Source of the DNA: Bdellovibrionales bacterium
GTDB lineage: Bacteria > Bdellovibrionota > Bdellovibrionia > Bdellovibrionales > UBA1609
NCBI GenBank assembly: GCA_013216195.1
Contig: JABSOQ010000026.1
Location: 1-33,685, forward strand
Reading direction: 5' to 3'
DNA: 33,685 bases
A model generated the notes under the pieces. That model was not told where the DNA came from. It saw nothing but the letters and a program-made list of their open reading frames with translations, and made no database searches. The position numbers and the translations under genes were made by a program. This document shows, piece by piece, positions 11,418 through 26,982 of this stretch (position 1 is its first letter; the number at the start of each line of letters is the position of its first letter).

Positions 11418-11447
11418 ATACCTGTCTTTACCTCAAAATCTGGCCAC

Positions 11448-11478
11448 AAAAAAAGCCTCTTACTAAAAGAGGCTTTTT
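11448..11478 (-). terminator. Strong intrinsic terminator/attenuator between khpA and rimM
   Basis: A 12-bp perfect stem: AAAAAGCCTCTT (11450-11461) pairs with AAGAGGCTTTTT (11467-11478) around a 5-nt loop. Read on the - strand it ends in a run of seven Ts and lies 30 bp after the khpA stop and about 30 bp before the rimM start. It would uncouple ffh-rpsP-khpA from rimM-trmD-rplS, or act as a partial read-through point. Confidence 0.8.
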
Positions 11479-11508
11479 ACAGAACTTCTGGTTTGTCGAA
11501 CTTAAAAA

Positions 11509-18388: not shown

Positions 18389-19348
18389 ATGAGCGAGAAA
18401 AACATAACCGTAACGGTAAGCACCTTCTACCTTTTTAAACCACTTAGCGAGAGCTTTGTCGAAGACCTCAAGACCAGACTTGAAGCCTTGAGTGAAAGAG
18501 AGGCATCATTATGTGGCTTGATTCTATTGGGCTCAGAAGGAATAAACTCGACAGTGGCAGGAAGCAAAGAAGCTGTTACCAAACTCAAACAACTTGTCAG
18601 TCTCGAACTCGATGACAAAATCTGGTTTAAAGATAGTGAGTGTGAGTTTCTGCCGTTTTCTCGCTTCAAAGTGAAAATCAAATCTGAAATTGTGACTCTT
18701 GGAAGGCCCGACCTTGTGCCTTCAGAGACAGTCAATCACCATCTCTCGCCCGATGAATGGGACAAAGCCTTACAAGAAGAAGATGTCGTCTGCATAGACA
18801 CTCGCAACACCTATGAGACTGACATTGGCATTTTCAAGGGGGCCTTAGATTTTCGCATTGATGACTTTCAAGAATTCACAGCGAAAATGAAAGACAGTGG
18901 CATCGACAAAGACAAAAAGATTCTGATTTACTGCACAGGCGGAATCCGTTGCGAAAAGGCGATTCTCGAGCTGCAAGAGCTTGGTTACAACAATGTTCAT
19001 CAGCTTAATGGTGGCATCATAAACTACCTTGCGGAGAAGCCTAACAGCATGTGGGAGGGAGAATGCTTTGTGTTTGATCACCGCGTTGCGCTTGATCAAA
19101 ATCTCAACCCCTCTAAACAGTACTTCTTGTGCCCTCACTGCGGCCAGCCTGGAACAAAGAAGATTGAGTGTCGTCAATGCGGCACCGAACAAGTGGTTTG
19201 TGACACGTGTCTCGAGCTAGGCCCAGAAAAAGAAACCTGCTCTAAGAACTGTGCAAACCACTACAAATTGGGCAACAAGAGCACCCGCATCCATAAGGAC
19301 AGCTTCTCTCAGCGGGCAAAGAAGGCACTTTCAGCCTCGGCGACATAA
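18389..19348 (+). CDS. trhO: tRNA uridine-34 hydroxylase TrhO (YceA family, rhodanese domain)
   Basis: TrhO hydroxylates U34 of certain tRNAs (ho5U) using oxygen. The protein has an N-terminal UPF0176 domain (TVSTFYLFKPL, ILLGSEGINSTVAG matching the family's EGIN motif). A rhodanese domain holds IDTRNTYETDIGIFKGAL and the active-site loop YCTGGIRCEKA (Cys ~181). C-terminally come FVFDHRVA and a Cys-rich zinc-ribbon-like part (CPHCG, CRQCG, CDTC, CSKNC). It is 319 aa from the ATG at 18389. A TTG 30 bp earlier is also in frame and no start has a clear ribosome site. It appears monocistronic, with about 120 bp separating it from the MutS-like gene, and is followed by the candidate RNA. Confidence 0.93.
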   Translation: MSEKNITVTVSTFYLFKPLSESFVEDLKTRLEALSEREASLCGLILLGSEGINSTVAGSKEAVTKLKQLVSLELDDKIWFKDSECEFLPFSRFKVKIKSEIVTLGRPDLVPSETVNHHLSPDEWDKALQEEDVVCIDTRNTYETDIGIFKGALDFRIDDFQEFTAKMKDSGIDKDKKILIYCTGGIRCEKAILELQELGYNNVHQLNGGIINYLAEKPNSMWEGECFVFDHRVALDQNLNPSKQYFLCPHCGQPGTKKIECRQCGTEQVVCDTCLELGPEKETCSKNCANHYKLGNKSTRIHKDSFSQRAKKALSASAT

Positions 19349-19350
19349 AA

Positions 19351-19378
19351 TTGTCTTATGGCTCAACGAAATTAAGAT
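19351..19378 (+). promoter_or_regulatory. Candidate promoter of the structured RNA
   Basis: TTGTCT (19351-19356) and TAAGAT (19373-19378) with a 16-bp spacer lie directly after the trhO stop. Each hexamer matches the sigma-70 consensus at four of six positions. Transcription would begin near 19385. A weak call, supported mainly by what follows. Confidence 0.35.
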
Positions 19379-19384
19379 CATTTT

Positions 19385-19640
19385 CATATTCTCTCATTTC
19401 TTTGTAATTTGAGTTTGTCTTCTGGTTTTGGGGAAAGCGAGAAGGACTCAGAAGCACAAAGTCTTTGGGGGAAGACGAGTATTTCTGGGGTCGCCAAGTG
19501 GGGTTACATTGAGGGGGTCCCTGTGAAGAGGTTCACAGGATCAAGAAAGGTAAGACCTCTTGGCAAAAATAAGTTCATTGTGTGTGTTCTCCTTTAGGGG
19601 AAAGAAAGAGGGTCTCAGAAATGAGGCCCTCTTTTTGTTT
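19385..19640 (+). ncRNA. Candidate structured small RNA of unknown family
   Basis: A ~250-nt stretch with no plausible gene, G-rich on the + strand unlike its neighbours, ending in a perfect intrinsic terminator. Internal stems visible by eye: GTCTTC 19417-19422 with GAAGAC 19471-19476; GACT 19445-19448 with AGTC 19460-19463; GCCAAG 19493-19498 with CTTGGC 19559-19564, enclosing a perfect 8-bp hairpin CCTGTGAA/TTCACAGG (19520-19527 and 19532-19539, loop GAGG). Outer TTTCTTT (19397-19403) can pair with AAAGAAA (19601-19607), giving a long closed rod with a large interior. That shape is reminiscent of 6S RNA, but I see no diagnostic sequence. tmRNA, RNase P RNA, 4.5S RNA and c-di-GMP-I riboswitch signatures are absent. 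Confidence 0.55.
19606..19636 (+). terminator. Intrinsic terminator of the candidate RNA
   Basis: AAGAGGGTCTC (19606-19616) pairs along its full 11 bp (one G-T) with GAGGCCCTCTT (19623-19633) around the 6-nt loop AGAAAT, followed by TTT. Strong stem and U-tract on the + strand. It lies about 260 bp after the trhO stop. Confidence 0.85.
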
Positions 19641-19939
19641 CAAGGCAACGACATTCTTCCAAGCCATCTCTATTTTCACGTCGGCTTGTAACCAACAATT
19701 CGCAATAGCAAAAACCTGCCTTGTGTTCAAAAAATACAACCTTAAACAATTCATCACCACCTGATCAGTTCTTCGACAACAACCAAAGCTGAACATGCGC
19801 CTGATCGCCACCTACCAGAATGGTCGTGGCCTTAATGTTGCTGCTTAGATCTCATATGAGAAATTGTGGCCCCTCTAAAGCAACCATACTCGGGCATTCA
19901 GGCTATCTAAATCTGGCTCTGGCTCTAAGCAGACTCATA

Positions 19940-20662
19940 ATGAGTCTCAGCGTCGCACTTTTTTGTTGTTTATTTTCGACCAAAAGCTTCGCTTGCGTGT
20001 GGAACAGTGCCATTGACCCTGTTTTTCTCAACACCTCGCCGATACCAATTTGCTTAAACGCACCTACAGACGTCGATCAAAGCGATCACTTTGCTCAATT
20101 CCGCGAGACTGAAACACTTGTAAGACAAGCTATTCGGTCAATGGCGGCACAGACTTCACTCAGTTTTGAAATTCAACAGGGCTACTGCGGAACAGATGCC
20201 GAATCTCTCGAAAAACCCATGATGCGAATACTGCTAAACCCAGAGACTAACACTGGTCAGGCTTTTCCTGATGAAGGCTTTGCAAACTACCAGCGCAATC
20301 TCTCTATACCTTTCTTAAACCCAGACGGCTCTGCTAGGAGTTACTCAAACCTGGCATTTATCACTCAACACGAAATTTTGCATTTGCTAGGAATCCAGCA
20401 CGACGACCGCAGTTTTGGCTCACCGGCTGACATTCAAAAGCGCCGCGACGCCCACCCAAACATATTAGACCTCACAAACGAGCATGCAGAGCTCTCTGTA
20501 ATGAACATCATGTCAGACGAACTCACTCCCCTGATGACAGGCCAAAGCTTTAGACAGAATATGGAGATCACACCTGAAGACAACACTTGTATTGATTTGG
20601 TGTTTGAAAGGCATCGACAAAACCGGCCCACTCCCCTTCTGCCAGCCGATGAAACTCGATAG
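19940..20662 (+). CDS. Exported metzincin-type zinc metalloprotease
   Basis: 240 aa from the ATG at 19940. That start places a signal peptide at the N-terminus (MSLSVALFCCLFSTKSFAC). The open frame also extends upstream to 19820, but that extension reads as non-native sequence. The key motif is QHEILHLLGIQHDD (His144 onward), a full HExxHxxGxxHxD zinc-binding site, followed ~45 residues later by SVMNIM, a plausible Met-turn. This combination is diagnostic of the metzincin clan, closest in style to matrixin/pappalysin-like bacterial proteases. The fold is short and no prodomain is obvious. Several Cys (mature Cys1, CLNA, YCGT, NTCID) suggest disulfides and an extracytoplasmic location. The substrate is unknown. 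It precedes the two large secreted proteins on the same strand. Confidence 0.78.
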   Translation: MSLSVALFCCLFSTKSFACVWNSAIDPVFLNTSPIPICLNAPTDVDQSDHFAQFRETETLVRQAIRSMAAQTSLSFEIQQGYCGTDAESLEKPMMRILLNPETNTGQAFPDEGFANYQRNLSIPFLNPDGSARSYSNLAFITQHEILHLLGIQHDDRSFGSPADIQKRRDAHPNILDLTNEHAELSVMNIMSDELTPLMTGQSFRQNMEITPEDNTCIDLVFERHRQNRPTPLLPADETR

Positions 20663-20970
20663 CTAAAGAGGAGCATCAAAGTTTAACCCGCGAAACCTCG
20701 CATTCTCATTTTGATACAGCAAGAACCACGAGGCTGATATCTCTCACCTTGGTACGTCAAAGTTGTAGCAAGCTAGGCTCAGTTAGACACCCTTAGGCTC
20801 CTCAATTCAAACATTTAACTCGTTGCCACCCGGAACAGATTTTGCTTAATCACAGTGTGGTTATGGGGAATTGAGGGTCGAGCGCTGATCGAAATCAGAT
20901 CAACCATCGCGAACAAGTGGTCTCAAAATAAAACCCCAGACCAGAGCTTCGAATGTGTGGTGGGGGATTC
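20663..20970 (+). other. 308-bp intergenic region, no gene recognised
   Basis: Between the metzincin stop and the next start. It contains a small hairpin CTGAT-CGAA-ATCAG near 20886-20899, a direct repeat TAGGCTC around 20774 and 20802, and a G-rich ribosome site (TGGGGGA) at 20961-20967. I see no convincing terminator after the protease gene and no strong promoter hexamers. It probably carries the promoter of the following two-gene unit. Confidence 0.4.
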
Positions 20971-22785
20971 ATGCATCTGTTTAGGTTTTGTTTTTTACTA
21001 GCGTCATATTTAATCGTAGCTGCAGCTTCCGCTGGCACCCTAGAAAACGAATTTGGACCAGGCTCTATCGGGTTTGAAACTGATGAAAATGGCAGCGCTC
21101 AAAAATCATTCGAAAGACATCAGCAGACAAGAGCAATAGGTCAATCGATTGATTATTCTATTTCTCTTGATGAGTACTCAGAGCAGTACTCAAACACCCA
21201 TGGCTCTGATGTTGGAGGCTTCGACTTTGACTCCTGGAGTGAGAACAATGGCGACAAAGAAGATGACAGAAATTCTGGCGGAAGCTACCGAGGCACTGCT
21301 GGAACGCCTGAAGACCCACTCCCCCACAAGGATCCTCAAGACGTGTTACTGGGTTTAAGAATCGCTCCACCAACAAGTAATGGTGAAGAAATTGTTGAAG
21401 ATGAAAGAACTTACGGGCCTCAGTACATTCAGGCTGGTGGCTTTAAAATTGTGGTAGGCCCTGAAATGGAGATCTACGACGTGGGAGGCCCTGTACCTGG
21501 TGACGGTGATGAAATTACTGAAACCGAAAGAGACCCAGACGCTTCGGTTCCTGAAGTTGACTTTGATGATGTGGTCAACAGTGTTAAACAAACTGTAGGA
21601 GCCGTTGTAGATGTGATTCGCACAACAGGTGTAGGCGAGCGGTTCATAGACAAGGTGAATGCTGTAGTAACACCAATGGCTCAAGCGACTCACACTGCCG
21701 TTTCAAACGCAGTAGAAGACTGGAAAGAGTCTCATACCGGTAAGGCCTTTATGAGTGGCATAAATGAAATGGGCCAACCCGCAGGAAACGCCCACCTCAC
21801 CGGGCAAACCCCCGAGCAAATAGCTGAGAGGCAATTTTATAGGGGAGTTAACGAATACCTAGACTCTGTAAACTGCATAGGCTGTGGCAACTATTCTGAC
21901 CCCATCACAGTGCCATTTCCGACAAGCTACATTGAGGCGGCCCTTATGACATCAGGCCTACCACCTGAAGCTTATGCCGATCTCGATATCAATCAAAATC
22001 AAACAGGTCGAGGCGCCAATCAAATTGATAGACTGAATAACGCCTACATGGACCCAGCTTTAGCAAACCAGGCCTCTATCTATGGCCCTTCAGCAGTAGG
22101 TCTTAGTGGCCCACAGGGTACTGACCTGCCAGATCGTATACTCAGCTACGGCAACACACCAACGGTTAACCTTGGCAGAGGTCACTCTTTTATTGTTGAA
22201 ATGCCAGCACAAAAAATGGATGAAGTCTTAGGAATTCAAGATCAAGTCGTTGGCGCAGTTATACCTTTGAACAATGCCGAAGACCGAAGCTATCTCGCAC
22301 CTGGAGGCATCGCCATGGTGCCAAGCACTCTTTCTAACTTCGGCGACGAGCAAAGAGTTTCTGGCGCGATTGAAGAGCTTCATCACGCCGGCGTTGTCGC
22401 AGCGATGCACTACACTGATGCCGCAAACAATGTGAGAGAAGATTTGAACTTAACAGAGGCAGAGGAGCAAGCTCTCGAGGCAATGGCATCGGTAATCAAC
22501 GACGTCAACTCTGCTCCTAGCTACTACCAAAACAACCAATTTCAGGCCGATCTTTATGTTTCACACCCAATGGAGCAAGCTGCAAAGACCGTCGCTCAAA
22601 CCCTTGATCAGCATGTCGAAGAGATTCAAAGCCTTAACCCGGGCATGAGCGACCGTGAGGCCTTACTCACGGCTGTAGAGGCAAGAGCCTATGGCGCGAA
22701 AGTGAACGAAGTTGTCGACAATTTTGCTGAAGTTTTTACTGATGAAAGATTCGAAGAAATCCGAGCATTAAACGAGCGCAGTTAA
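20971..22785 (+). CDS. Secreted protein of unknown function
   Basis: 604 aa from the ATG at 20971, chosen because TGGGGGA sits 3-5 bp upstream and a signal peptide follows at once (MHLFRFCFLLASYLIVAAASAG). An ATG six codons earlier is the alternative. The mature N-terminal ~200 residues are acidic, Gly/Asp/Ser-rich and probably disordered. Residues ~190-260 are helical. A Cys pair (NCIGCGNY) lies near residue 300. The C-terminal ~200 residues look globular, with AIEELHHAG (~470) and later VEARAYGAKVNE (~570). I recognise no family. The EELHH followed by a distal E-A-R is reminiscent of degenerate zincin-like toxin domains, but the first zinc His would be missing. The RTX/DUF4214 lipoprotein gene begins 52 bp downstream, so the two are likely an operon. 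Confidence 0.85.
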   Translation: MHLFRFCFLLASYLIVAAASAGTLENEFGPGSIGFETDENGSAQKSFERHQQTRAIGQSIDYSISLDEYSEQYSNTHGSDVGGFDFDSWSENNGDKEDDRNSGGSYRGTAGTPEDPLPHKDPQDVLLGLRIAPPTSNGEEIVEDERTYGPQYIQAGGFKIVVGPEMEIYDVGGPVPGDGDEITETERDPDASVPEVDFDDVVNSVKQTVGAVVDVIRTTGVGERFIDKVNAVVTPMAQATHTAVSNAVEDWKESHTGKAFMSGINEMGQPAGNAHLTGQTPEQIAERQFYRGVNEYLDSVNCIGCGNYSDPITVPFPTSYIEAALMTSGLPPEAYADLDINQNQTGRGANQIDRLNNAYMDPALANQASIYGPSAVGLSGPQGTDLPDRILSYGNTPTVNLGRGHSFIVEMPAQKMDEVLGIQDQVVGAVIPLNNAEDRSYLAPGGIAMVPSTLSNFGDEQRVSGAIEELHHAGVVAAMHYTDAANNVREDLNLTEAEEQALEAMASVINDVNSAPSYYQNNQFQADLYVSHPMEQAAKTVAQTLDQHVEEIQSLNPGMSDREALLTAVEARAYGAKVNEVVDNFAEVFTDERFEEIRALNERS

Positions 22786-22837
22786 CTAGATATCAATTTG
22801 GTACAAAATCTAATCATCAAGGTTCGGGGGGATAGCG

Positions 22838-25800
22838 GTGATTAAAAGTTCTTGGGCAAGTCTGTGCGTAGCGCTTCTGGCTGTTATCGCTCTCACACAA
22901 AGCTGTGGCCGATTTCAATCTCAAACAGCTCAGCCTGGCCAAGAAAGTACAAGTAGCTCTCGAACGGACGCCTTCCAACCCCTCCTCATGAGCAAATTCG
23001 ATGCGCCCCTAGAGCTTGCTGACATTGCCGAGATATCAGAACAACTAACCCAGATCCCCTCAAATGATATTCGAAGAGTGACTCTTACAAGAACACTTCA
23101 CGCAAAATCAGCTCTATTTGCCATCTACGTAAAAGCAAACAGCTGTGATCAGCTATTTTCGCAAAACCCGCACATGCCGACTGGTGAGTACACCCTCTAC
23201 CAGGGTGATGCTTCAAGCTTGTGGGTGTGCGAAGTCAATAACGGTCAAGTGACAGGCTCTCGCTCTACCTCGCTACCTGATAGAGGCAATATGAACTGTG
23301 TGTCTTCAGGAATTTGCGTTGGGGCACCAAAGGCGCTCATGCTAGACAATTTTGATAAGCGGGTCGAAGGCTCTTCGCGCAATGAGACCTTTAACGGCAC
23401 TCCTGGCAAAGACAAAATACTCGGCAAAGGTGGCAACGATACGATCAATGGTGGTCAAGACGGTGATCACCTAGAGGGCAACGAAGGCAATGACACTCTC
23501 AACGGCGACATGGGTGAAGATGTTTTACTAGGCGGGCCTGGTGATGACATCGTAAGGGGTGGTCGCCACAATGACTTTGTCGGTGGCGGCGAAGGTGACG
23601 ACCGTCTTTTTGGCGAGCATGGCAATGATTACCTACGAGGCGGGGCTGGAAACGACTTTCTCGCAGGAGGCGATGGTAGAGACTACCTTCAAGGGGGAGA
23701 AAACCGAGACATTCTTTACGGCGGTGGTGGCAGTGATTTGCTCGAGGGTAACGAAGGCAATGACGACATACATGCTGGCGAGGGTGATGACTTCACCTTT
23801 GGCGGTAAAGGTGCAGACCTCATATACGGCGAAGACGGCAATGACAGACTTGCCGGCAACCTTGGCCACGACCGTATACATGGCGGGTCCGGTGACGATA
23901 TAATCTGGGGCAACGAAGGCAGTGATCTTCTAGACGGCGGGCCTGGAGAAGACTATCTGGCCGGCAATGATGGCTCTGACGTGCTTCATGGTGGCCCGGG
24001 TAACGATGTTCTGATCGGCCATATGGGCTCAGATGTCTACGTGTTCAACCCCGGTTCAGGCCTCGACTCGGTTTTGGAGTTTGAAGGCGGCATAGACAGA
24101 ATCGACATCCGAACATTCAACTTGAAAAGCTTAAACGCAATCAAGAACCGAACCACTTGTTTTGGCGAATGGACTGGTGACGTCAACACAGCTGACGACT
24201 ACTGCATCATTCACCTCTCCAACACTGATAAAACTGCAATTCTTAGCAGCCCAGGCATCAGTGCCGTTCTCGCTGAGTTCAGCAACATTGAAAATATCTT
24301 TATTTTCAAAATGAGTGATGCTGAAAAGAAAGATCGAGAATTTCTAATTGAGGTCTATGACAAGTACTTCGGCCGACCACCTCAGCTGCAGGCTTATTTT
24401 TACTGGCTAGAGCAAATGGTTGAAAACGAGAATGATAACGAAATCGAAAGAGACATTTTGTTTGGCGCAAGCCTTGAAGACCAAGATCATGTTCTTCAAA
24501 ACACTGCCGATGCAGCAAGGCAGTTTCTAACTGACAACAACTTTGGTTTTCCGGCATGGCTCACTCTAGGCGAGACTGGCGTCTCAGAGGATCTTCTCAA
24601 CCGCATCTACCGAAAGTATTTCGAAAGAGACATCGCAGGGGCTGGCCTTGACTACTGGCTAGAAGAAGGCAAAAGCATGAGTACCCCAGAGCTCGAGAAG
24701 AGTATTATCTACGGCTCAAGAGATTCAGATCGCTCGACACTCGCCTGGAAAAACGCAGTAAAAGCACGCACATTTTTGCGAGAGCAATCTTTCGAACTAC
24801 CTGAATGGCTTACTGTCGCAAAAGAAAACGAACGGAAAGCAGCTGTTCGGCCCTGGTACCAAAAGTACTTCAAGCGAGATGCCGATGGTGACGGTGTTCA
24901 GTATTGGCAGGCTCAACTAACTGTGCTTGAACCTATAGAGGCTGAAAGAGATTTTGTAAAGGGCACCTCTGATAACGACAAAGCTAGAATGAAGAACCAA
25001 GGCACCGACGCTGTGGCAAGGTTGTTCTTCTCAAGTAACAGCTTCACTCTCCCCGACTGGCTAGCCTGCCTACCTGGTGAACTAATGAATTCTCAAGGTG
25101 AATGCGAAGTTGGAGAACAAAAACAAGGCCGCATTGATTACCTTTCAAATATTTACCAAGAGTTCTTCAACAGACCTGCAGATGCTGAGGCTATCAACTA
25201 CTGGGAACCGCAATTGGCAACAAACCCTTGGAGCAACATTAAAGTGTTGATCATTAAAGGTGCAATCAACCAAGCGCCTCATCAAGACCGCACCTACATG
25301 GTGCAAAACAAGGCTGTTGAAGCTAGGCGCTTTTTACGCTCAAAAAACTCAAACATTCCAGACTGGCTAGATTGCCAGAGCCCGGATCGCGCAGCTAACA
25401 ATCAAGGAGTCTGTGTACTGAACTCAGACGCCACGGCTCGTCGTGATTTTATCAAGTCGCTCTACAGCAAGTACCTTAACCGAACAGTTGGCAACAATGC
25501 CTCTGGCCTTGTGTGGTGGGTTGAAGAAACTCGAGGCAAAACCACACTGGTAATCGAGCGAGACTTTATAAACGGAATCACAACTCAGGCTGATCGAACC
25601 ACCGCTCGTACGGGCAACTCAGGCAATCAGGCACGCGAGTTCTTAAACGACAATGACTTCGCAATACCTGCATGGCTTCAGTATTCGTCTGATTTGATCA
25701 TGAACAGCAACGGCGAGTGCGTTGTCAATCAAGCTCGGCTCGACAGAATCGCCTACCTATCAAACATCTACCAAGAGTTCTTCAATAGACCTGCCGACAC

Positions 25801-26608
25801 CGAGTCCGTTAACTTTTGGGAGCCGAAATTGGCCACGAACCCTTGGGTCAACATTAAGGTTTTGATTATCAAAGGTGCGATCAACCAAGCGCCCCATCAA
25901 GACCGCACCTACATGGTACAAAACAAGGCCGTACCAGCAAGACGCTTTCTCAAGGGGCAAACCTCAAGCCTTCCGACTTGGCTGCAGTGCCAAGAACCAG
26001 ACAAAGTTAGCAACAACAATGGCGTGTGCGTACTTAATGCCGATGCGATTTCTAGAAGGGATTTCTTAAAGACTCTTTACACCAAGTATCTTAACCGAAC
26101 CGTTACCAACAATGACTCTGGCCTAATTTACTGGGTCGAAGACACGCGTGGCCTAAAACGAACCCGCATGGAGACCAATTTCATCTTTGGTATCACCTCA
26201 TCAGCCGACCGAAACACAGTGCTTAATAGCACTGCAGACGACAAAGCCCGAAAGCATCTTTATGATGCCAATTGGTCGGTGCCTGGTTGGCTAAGATGCG
26301 AAGAGAACTATGTTGTGAATCGCAACAATGGTCGCTGTGAGATGGATGCCGAATACTCAGCGAATCGAGACTTCATCGTAGGGCTTTACGATAAGTACTT
26401 CAGTAAAACACCAGATGAGGCTGGCATTGACTACTGGATGGGGCGTTTACCGAATTACTCCCGTGTGAACCTAGAGTTCAACTTTATCAACGGAGCCTCC
26501 GGTGCCGACAGAAGAACACTGAGAGAGCAAAACGTGAAAACAGCACTCAGGTTTATTCACAACAACAATAAAGGCTCTCAGATACCTAGCTGGTTGTTGC
26601 CTTATTGA
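22838..26608 (+). CDS. RTX/DUF4214-repeat surface lipoprotein (ends at TGA inside repeat array)
   Basis: 1256 aa, GTG start behind GGGGGGA. The N-terminus ends in a lipobox-like LTQSC (Cys23), predicting a lipoprotein. Residues ~25-185 are an unrecognised domain with Cys pairs. About 20 glycine/aspartate RTX nonapeptides follow at ~186-402 (repeated G-G-x-G-x-D, here mostly G-N-E-G-N-D or G-G-x-G-D-D), forming a calcium-binding beta-roll. A beta-rich cap with DxIDIRTF comes next. From ~498 come eight DUF4214-like units of about 75-110 residues, each with LYxKYFxR, a YW, an F-I-x-G and an end W-L. These repeats are usual in large secreted or S-layer-associated bacterial proteins. No type I secretion genes are nearby. 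The TGA at 26606 falls between units 8 and 9. Confidence 0.9.
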   Translation: MIKSSWASLCVALLAVIALTQSCGRFQSQTAQPGQESTSSSRTDAFQPLLMSKFDAPLELADIAEISEQLTQIPSNDIRRVTLTRTLHAKSALFAIYVKANSCDQLFSQNPHMPTGEYTLYQGDASSLWVCEVNNGQVTGSRSTSLPDRGNMNCVSSGICVGAPKALMLDNFDKRVEGSSRNETFNGTPGKDKILGKGGNDTINGGQDGDHLEGNEGNDTLNGDMGEDVLLGGPGDDIVRGGRHNDFVGGGEGDDRLFGEHGNDYLRGGAGNDFLAGGDGRDYLQGGENRDILYGGGGSDLLEGNEGNDDIHAGEGDDFTFGGKGADLIYGEDGNDRLAGNLGHDRIHGGSGDDIIWGNEGSDLLDGGPGEDYLAGNDGSDVLHGGPGNDVLIGHMGSDVYVFNPGSGLDSVLEFEGGIDRIDIRTFNLKSLNAIKNRTTCFGEWTGDVNTADDYCIIHLSNTDKTAILSSPGISAVLAEFSNIENIFIFKMSDAEKKDREFLIEVYDKYFGRPPQLQAYFYWLEQMVENENDNEIERDILFGASLEDQDHVLQNTADAARQFLTDNNFGFPAWLTLGETGVSEDLLNRIYRKYFERDIAGAGLDYWLEEGKSMSTPELEKSIIYGSRDSDRSTLAWKNAVKARTFLREQSFELPEWLTVAKENERKAAVRPWYQKYFKRDADGDGVQYWQAQLTVLEPIEAERDFVKGTSDNDKARMKNQGTDAVARLFFSSNSFTLPDWLACLPGELMNSQGECEVGEQKQGRIDYLSNIYQEFFNRPADAEAINYWEPQLATNPWSNIKVLIIKGAINQAPHQDRTYMVQNKAVEARRFLRSKNSNIPDWLDCQSPDRAANNQGVCVLNSDATARRDFIKSLYSKYLNRTVGNNASGLVWWVEETRGKTTLVIERDFINGITTQADRTTARTGNSGNQAREFLNDNDFAIPAWLQYSSDLIMNSNGECVVNQARLDRIAYLSNIYQEFFNRPADTESVNFWEPKLATNPWVNIKVLIIKGAINQAPHQDRTYMVQNKAVPARRFLKGQTSSLPTWLQCQEPDKVSNNNGVCVLNADAISRRDFLKTLYTKYLNRTVTNNDSGLIYWVEDTRGLKRTRMETNFIFGITSSADRNTVLNSTADDKARKHLYDANWSVPGWLRCEENYVVNRNNGRCEMDAEYSANRDFIVGLYDKYFSKTPDEAGIDYWMGRLPNYSRVNLEFNFINGASGADRRTLREQNVKTALRFIHNNNKGSQIPSWLLPY
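23395..24045 (+). repeat. RTX nonapeptide repeat tract (27-bp period)
   Basis: Roughly 20 tandem degenerate 27-bp units, each encoding G-G-x-G-x-D-x-U-x, inside the lipoprotein gene. Units differ at the DNA level (no identical neighbours over long stretches), pointing to an old array rather than a recent expansion. The last unit (GHMGSDVYVF) shows the typical RTX end pattern. Confidence 0.9.
25130..26359 (+). repeat. Two-copy 615-bp internal duplication in the DUF4214 array
   Basis: Units 4+5 (25130-25744) and 6+7 (25745-26359) are aligned copies with an exact 615-bp (205-codon) spacing. Unit 4 and unit 6 share LSNIYQEFFNRPAD, NIKVLIIKGAINQAPHQDR and TYMVQNKAV. Unit 5 and unit 7 share YLNRTV and the long insert with GVCVLN. 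The other units are far more divergent, so the duplication of a two-unit module is more recent. Confidence 0.9.
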
Positions 26609-26842
26609 ACAGTCAACCGTATGTACCGCAGATACTTCGGCAAAGATGGTGACCAAGGTGGCTTGAACTATTGGGTTGACGAGTACGAAGACCGCGGCGA
26701 GTACAAAACTGTTGAAAGAGATCTCATATACAACTCTCAAAGTACGGAAAGCGCTATCTTGACCGGCAATACTCAGTACAGAAACAGTGCGCGAAGCTTT
26801 TTGAACAAGAACGGGTTCAGTATCCCGAACTGGCTAAATTAA
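26609..26842 (+). pseudogene. Ninth DUF4214 repeat, in frame behind the TGA
   Basis: Directly after the TGA at 26606-26608 the same reading frame stays open for 77 codons (TVNRMYRRYFGKDGDQGGLN onward) to TAA at 26840. It encodes one complete DUF4214 unit ending FSIPNWLN, just as the array units end in W-L. NRMYRRYFGKD aligns with the unit-2 start NRIYRKYFERD. An internal ATG at 26621 has no ribosome site. The unit is either the lost end of the lipoprotein (nonsense mutation or sequencing error) or a read-through extension. A strong hairpin follows this second stop. Confidence 0.8.
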
Positions 26843-26856
26843 AGGAGAGAAGCGAA

Positions 26857-26883
26857 TCTCGATGGGCCTAACAGCCCTCGAGA
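26857..26883 (+). terminator. Hairpin after the ninth repeat (possible terminator)
   Basis: TCTCGA-t-GGGC (26857-26867) pairs with GCCC-TCGAGA (26874-26883) around a 6-nt loop: ten base pairs with one bulge. It lies 15 bp after the TAA of the repeat-9 frame and has no U-tract, so it may need Rho or only protect the 3' end. Its position fits a gene that once ended at 26842, not at 26608. Confidence 0.5.
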
Positions 26884-26982
26884 CACTCCAATGCTGCTCA
26901 AATGACTGACATTTGCTGGTTCCACTTCGGCATCGCACTAAATTTATTGAATAAATTATTAGAAATATTCAGGTTTTAGACC

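Follow-up and report, generated by a model that had tools for sequence, protein, structure and literature searches.

A candidate lineage-specific small RNA behind trhO in a Bdellovibrionales bacterium

The window analysed here, a stretch of 33,685 nt from contig JABSOQ010000026.1 of a Bdellovibrionales bacterium, contains a structured intergenic region immediately downstream of trhO. The stop codon of trhO lies at 19348; the first real gene after it starts with the ATG at 19940, an arrangement of the gap and its flanking genes that agrees with an earlier, sequence-only reading of this DNA. The gap that follows trhO (19349-19640) is occupied by a proposed RNA gene. The features of the locus are as follows.

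18389-19348, + strand: trhO, tRNA uridine hydroxylase with a rhodanese fold, the upstream neighbour (Pfam UPF0176_N, Rhodanese, Rhodanese_C)
19351-19378, + strand: best sigma-70-like promoter candidate, TTGTCT-16-TAAGAT, predicted start ~19385
19381-19408, + strand: weaker alternative promoter candidate, TTTTCA-16-TGTAAT, predicted start ~19415
19385-19640, + strand: proposed RNA gene, ~225-255 nt according to where the 5' end lies, supported by fold z and the GC-skew maximum
19413-19453, + strand: copy 1 of the direct repeat, GTTTGTCTTCTGGTTTTGGGGAAAGCGAGAAGGACTCAGAA, sharing 78% identity with copy 2
19419-19444, + strand: predicted hairpin 1, stem CUUCU-G-GUUUU/AAAGC-G-AGAAG, loop GGGG
19445-19492, + strand: predicted hairpin 2, a long stem with the inner part GUCUUU/GAAGAC, loop GGGG
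19493-19564, + strand: predicted hairpin 3, base GCCAAG/CUUGGC, internal loops (AAGAAAG in one), apex UGUGAA/UUCACA with loop GAGG
19580-19620, + strand: direct repeat copy 2, containing hairpin 4 and the terminator 5' arm
19587-19602, + strand: predicted small hairpin 4, UUCUCC/GGGGAA with loop UUUA, within repeat copy 2
19603-19642, + strand: intrinsic terminator with a stem of 13-15 bp, a GAAA loop and the tail UUUUUGUUU
19940-20662, + strand: secreted metzincin-type protease, the downstream neighbour (motif HEILHLLGIQH, signal peptide from ATG 19940)

The G-richness of the gap on the + strand, pointed out in the sequence-only reading, is the GC-skew maximum of the window: the skew at 19411-19610 is +0.40, the top value of all 200-nt windows (mean for the window -0.09, sd 0.125). 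Six runs of at least four G occur within 171 nt, compared to a mean of 2.7 in shuffled sequences, of which 3 in 2000 reached six. Three of the six runs are predicted to be fully or mostly unpaired. A G-quadruplex was considered and set aside, as the folding program did not prefer one. The only small protein considered for the region (19409-19597; 62 aa, TTG start) was rejected; it belongs to no family, no Shine-Dalgarno sequence was seen ahead of it, and its codon score reaches only the lowest part of the range of real genes. Judged from its sequence, the candidate region is not convincingly coding.

The + strand of 19410-19642 folds with a computed energy of -92 kcal/mol, which corresponds to a z score of -5.97 and was matched by 0 of 200 shuffles; for 19390-19640, the z score is -6.9. 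The fold is not merely that of the terminator, because the z scores without it are still -5.4 (19410-19575) and -5.7 (19444-19570). These calculations support the structured RNA with internal stems that had been proposed. In a tile scan of both strands, the region ranks third by fold z among 450 tiles, behind an ordinary terminator near 11440 and RTX repeats. The opposite strands of 19410-19642 differ by 32 kcal/mol (-92 for + vs -60 for -), and 11-12 G-U pairs are found in the + strand fold. Because the complementary strand folds worse, in agreement with the U-tract of the terminator, the + strand is likely the RNA strand. A significant fold on the terminator strand, as looked for in an intergenic sRNA, is thus present (z -6.0, with + far better than -).

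The region is predicted to fold into separate hairpins arranged in a row. Hairpin 1 and the inner stem of hairpin 2 show pair probabilities of 0.95-1.0, in the case of hairpin 1 for a transcript that starts at 19410, whereas with a start at ~19385 the 5' leader is predicted to compete with the outer part of hairpin 2; in the model, therefore, the choice of the 5' end alters the fold of this hairpin and matters. The pair probabilities of hairpin 3 are mostly 0.96-1.0, and this hairpin is retained in the longer transcript. The sequence GGGGAAAG, previously noticed at 19430 and 19597, is indeed found at these two sites only, and is part of a degenerate 41-nt direct repeat (19413-19453/19580-19620) equalled in 0 of 1000 shuffles. 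Neither this repeat nor the cluster of GGGG runs was described in the sequence-only reading. TTTNGGGGAAAG does not stand out as a genome-wide repeat, since its reversed control occurs at least as often. The terminator arms (19605-19617/19622-19634) are followed by the U-tract, so that the claim of an own terminator holds, with a stem of 13-15 bp in place of the 11 bp given originally; a simple terminator scan did not list this hairpin. The closing stem suggested between TTTCTTT (19397) and AAAGAAA (19601) is unsupported because it overlaps and competes with the terminator arm, and it is missing from the minimum-energy folds.

The alternative pairings of the region would allow a cis-acting attenuator in the leader of the genes for the protease, a 610-aa protein and an RTX protein, a reading that we consider doubtful. 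In its detailed form, which is no less doubtful, the 3' strand (19480-19492) of hairpin 2, which can pair physically with the terminator 5' arm (19611-19623) in place of repeat copy 1, would give a terminator/antiterminator switch. In transcripts that end at 19620-19627 (19385 start) or 19623-19625 (19410 start), this 13-bp helix is the alternative of lowest energy, and the region 19600-19940 holds no comparable promoter (best score 5.6). However, the energy of this pairing is at chance level, being reached by 263 of 1000 shuffles, and the full transcript favours the terminator state by 13-19 kcal/mol. Moreover, the protease gene starts ~300 nt beyond the terminator, and riboswitch families are unmatched at the locus. 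That the direct repeat would be the very mechanism of an RNA switch, the 3' strand of hairpin 2 picking copy 1 or copy 2 to control the protease and RTX genes, is highly improbable; such a switch would represent a novel class of attenuator, known to date from a single genome.

The exposed G-rich loops also recall a CsrA-binding decoy like CsrB or RsmZ, in which they would hold CsrA. CsrA is encoded in the genome, and GGGG beside A is predicted to be exposed on hairpins 1 and 2. Yet the 256 nt contain just five GGA and a single ANGGA, located at 19442 outside a loop, where a decoy of this type would carry many ANGGA in loops, and we regard this function as very unlikely.

Known RNA families were searched at the locus with Rfam, and every family scored below threshold. 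Covariance models for tmRNA, RNase P RNA and SRP RNA returned nothing above threshold at the locus, the place to which the SRP RNA search was confined, in keeping with the earlier statement that the region matches none of them. A divergent tmRNA or RNase P RNA was rejected, as the true copies of the same genome sit on contigs C90 and C168, respectively. The sequence-only reading had also entertained a divergent 6S RNA, with which the candidate shares a similar length and an intergenic position. This identity is ruled out: cmscan on 601 nt left 6S RNA (RF00013) unmatched up to E = 10, a full-length 6S RNA of the same genome lies on another contig (G000:C289:6511-6684, 75.4 bits), and the architecture is different. 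6S RNA is a single long bulged rod with a central open bubble that mimics a promoter, whereas the minimum-energy and centroid folds of the candidate are both rows of hairpins. Locating the true housekeeping RNAs elsewhere in the genome is a fast way to exclude such a reading. The best Rfam alignment was to STnc250 (RF01409; 19551-19642), and it was discarded since its 28.5 bits fall under the gathering score of 42 and it consists chiefly of the terminator hairpin and the U tail. STnc250 is described as Hfq-binding, whereas Hfq was not found in the present genome.

Searches for homologues were equally negative. With blastn, relatives, the family (47 genomes) and the phylum (369 genomes) yielded no homologue, and neither did two further genomes of the genus (of which one is only 61% complete); collections of phages and plasmids were likewise without a match. 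A single-sequence covariance model recovered only the source locus among the 141 genomes of the order, with zero matches in trhO neighbourhoods. Short blastn matches were dismissed one after another: L002 and L152 fall within long reading frames, L115 within a dihydrouridine-synthase gene, and L117 has only the terminator core in common. The match L115 (SGVAKWGYIEGV) raised the idea of a decayed dihydrouridine-synthase gene, which we attribute to chance (tblastn E 0.87 for the window, no Pfam match). For the same-genus genome G002, an orthologue of the RNA between trhO and the tRNA gene was likewise rejected, the alignment of the gap being at shuffle level and its fold not significant. With trhO as the query, further genome contigs returned only distant trhO loci, mostly from Acinetobacter.

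The comparison of trhO neighbourhoods reveals a large difference in spacing. The distance from trhO to tRNA-Met is 30-537 nt in five relatives vs 7691 nt here, and an alignment of the sequence just ahead of tRNA-Met with the same-genus gap still reaches a score of 54 vs a shuffle maximum of 46. For these two reasons, ~7.5 kb separates two old neighbours, and the segment (19350-26900) was likely gained; repeats at both of its ends were sought and none was found. It comprises the candidate RNA at its left edge, the metzincin-type protease, the 610-aa protein and an RTX/DUF4214 protein. The protease has no Pfam family match and a single weak homologue among the 141 genomes of the order, and the 610-aa protein has no Pfam match either. 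The RTX/DUF4214 protein (22838-26608) is 1256 aa long and carries DUF4214 behind 14 stretches of RTX calcium-binding repeats. A functionless chance fold in the G-rich sequence of a recently gained segment would account for the restriction to one genome and for the lack of conservation of any kind. It is nonetheless very unlikely, as a z score of -6, an extreme skew, a terminator and a strand asymmetry all coincide.

The start of the putative transcript is less well defined than its end. The weak sigma-70-like promoter reported earlier just after trhO was recovered with a weight matrix at 19351-19378, but a strict promoter scan of the gap found none. The candidate begins 3 nt past the trhO stop codon and scores 8.04, level with the tRNA-Met promoter of the window (7.85), and such scores occur ~1.4 times per kb over both strands; on this sequence evidence, the promoter is plausible but weak. 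The alternative at 19381-19408 scores 6.77, a value expected ~4.6 times per kb by chance. FliA-type promoters were discounted, as none stands out and more than 400 equally good sites exist in the window.

The weakness of all promoter candidates in the gap bears on the main rival to an sRNA, namely that the region is the structured 3'UTR and terminator of trhO, in which the fold would guard the mRNA from 3' exonucleases and no separate RNA gene would exist, with at most a processed 3'UTR fragment being formed. In line with this view, trhO lies directly upstream on the same strand, and the terminator is the first clear one behind it. On the other hand, ~250 nt and three large hairpins exceed what a terminator needs, and trhO of the relatives lacks such a region, with tRNA-Met following at short distance in all five genomes. 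We consider the 3'UTR possible, but on balance unlikely.

The reading that we favour, with a probability of roughly one half, is a lineage-specific, free-standing intergenic sRNA of ~225-255 nt on the + strand. The unassigned structured RNA of the sequence-only reading is upheld by the fold, the terminator, and the absence of a known family and of homologues; its 6S alternative is not. We infer the transcription, 5' end, trans action and targets of the sRNA as follows. RNA polymerase would initiate just after trhO, or the RNA would be cut out of the trhO mRNA, and transcription would stop at the terminator near 19640. The RNA would immediately adopt a series of stable hairpins that expose the G-rich tetraloops GGGG, GGGG and GAGG, its 3' end being shielded by the terminator hairpin and the U tail. 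Action in trans would be most likely, either by pairing of the loops with C-rich target RNAs, as their predicted exposure and G-richness suggest, or by holding a protein. Such action would be Hfq-independent, because Hfq (Pfam PF17209) was not found in the 97.6%-complete assembly; CsrA, as stated above, is encoded. What weighs against an sRNA is that it is homologue-less in the genomes searched, and hence shows neither covariation nor a sign of selection, and that its promoter is weak.

An orphan RNA of this size is of a kind expected in the group, since comparable sRNAs exist in Bdellovibrio bacteriovorus, where RNA-seq revealed eight intergenic sRNAs of 98-655 nt, most of them strongly folding (PMC3627812). 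The APsRNAs of this species have no significant homology in other genomes (PMC3627812), and the candidate resembles the attack-phase sRNAs APsRNA1-7 of strain HD100 in its intergenic position, strong fold, size (about 100-650 nt) and lack of significant homology elsewhere (PMC3627812). The likeness is one of description: the HD100 sRNAs were detected by RNA-seq and have FliA promoters in 3/8 cases (PMC3627812), whereas the present candidate is known from its sequence alone. Under the ranking applied to newly found structured RNAs, so sparsely represented a motif would remain unnamed or low-ranking (PMC11109978). On both grounds, the candidate is a new one of a known, ordinary kind with a putative function, and not a new class. 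The mapping of sRNAs in relatives of predatory bacteria is sparse, and a stable free-standing sRNA at this locus would offer a way into the Hfq-independent regulation of the group.

Further hairpins or stable folds were observed outside the locus. A terminator of the relative G022 (L117; G022:C64:33407-33449) has the same CAGAAATGAGG core as the one described here, which suggests, at the sequence level, a terminator style common to the family. Within the RTX gene, the tile 24151-24316 folds unusually well on the - strand, probably owing to the repeats. The rimM-ffh gap (11430-11480) contains a strong terminator hairpin, AAAAAAAGCCTCTTACTAAAAGAGGCTTTTT, whose tile has the lowest fold z in the scan of the window.
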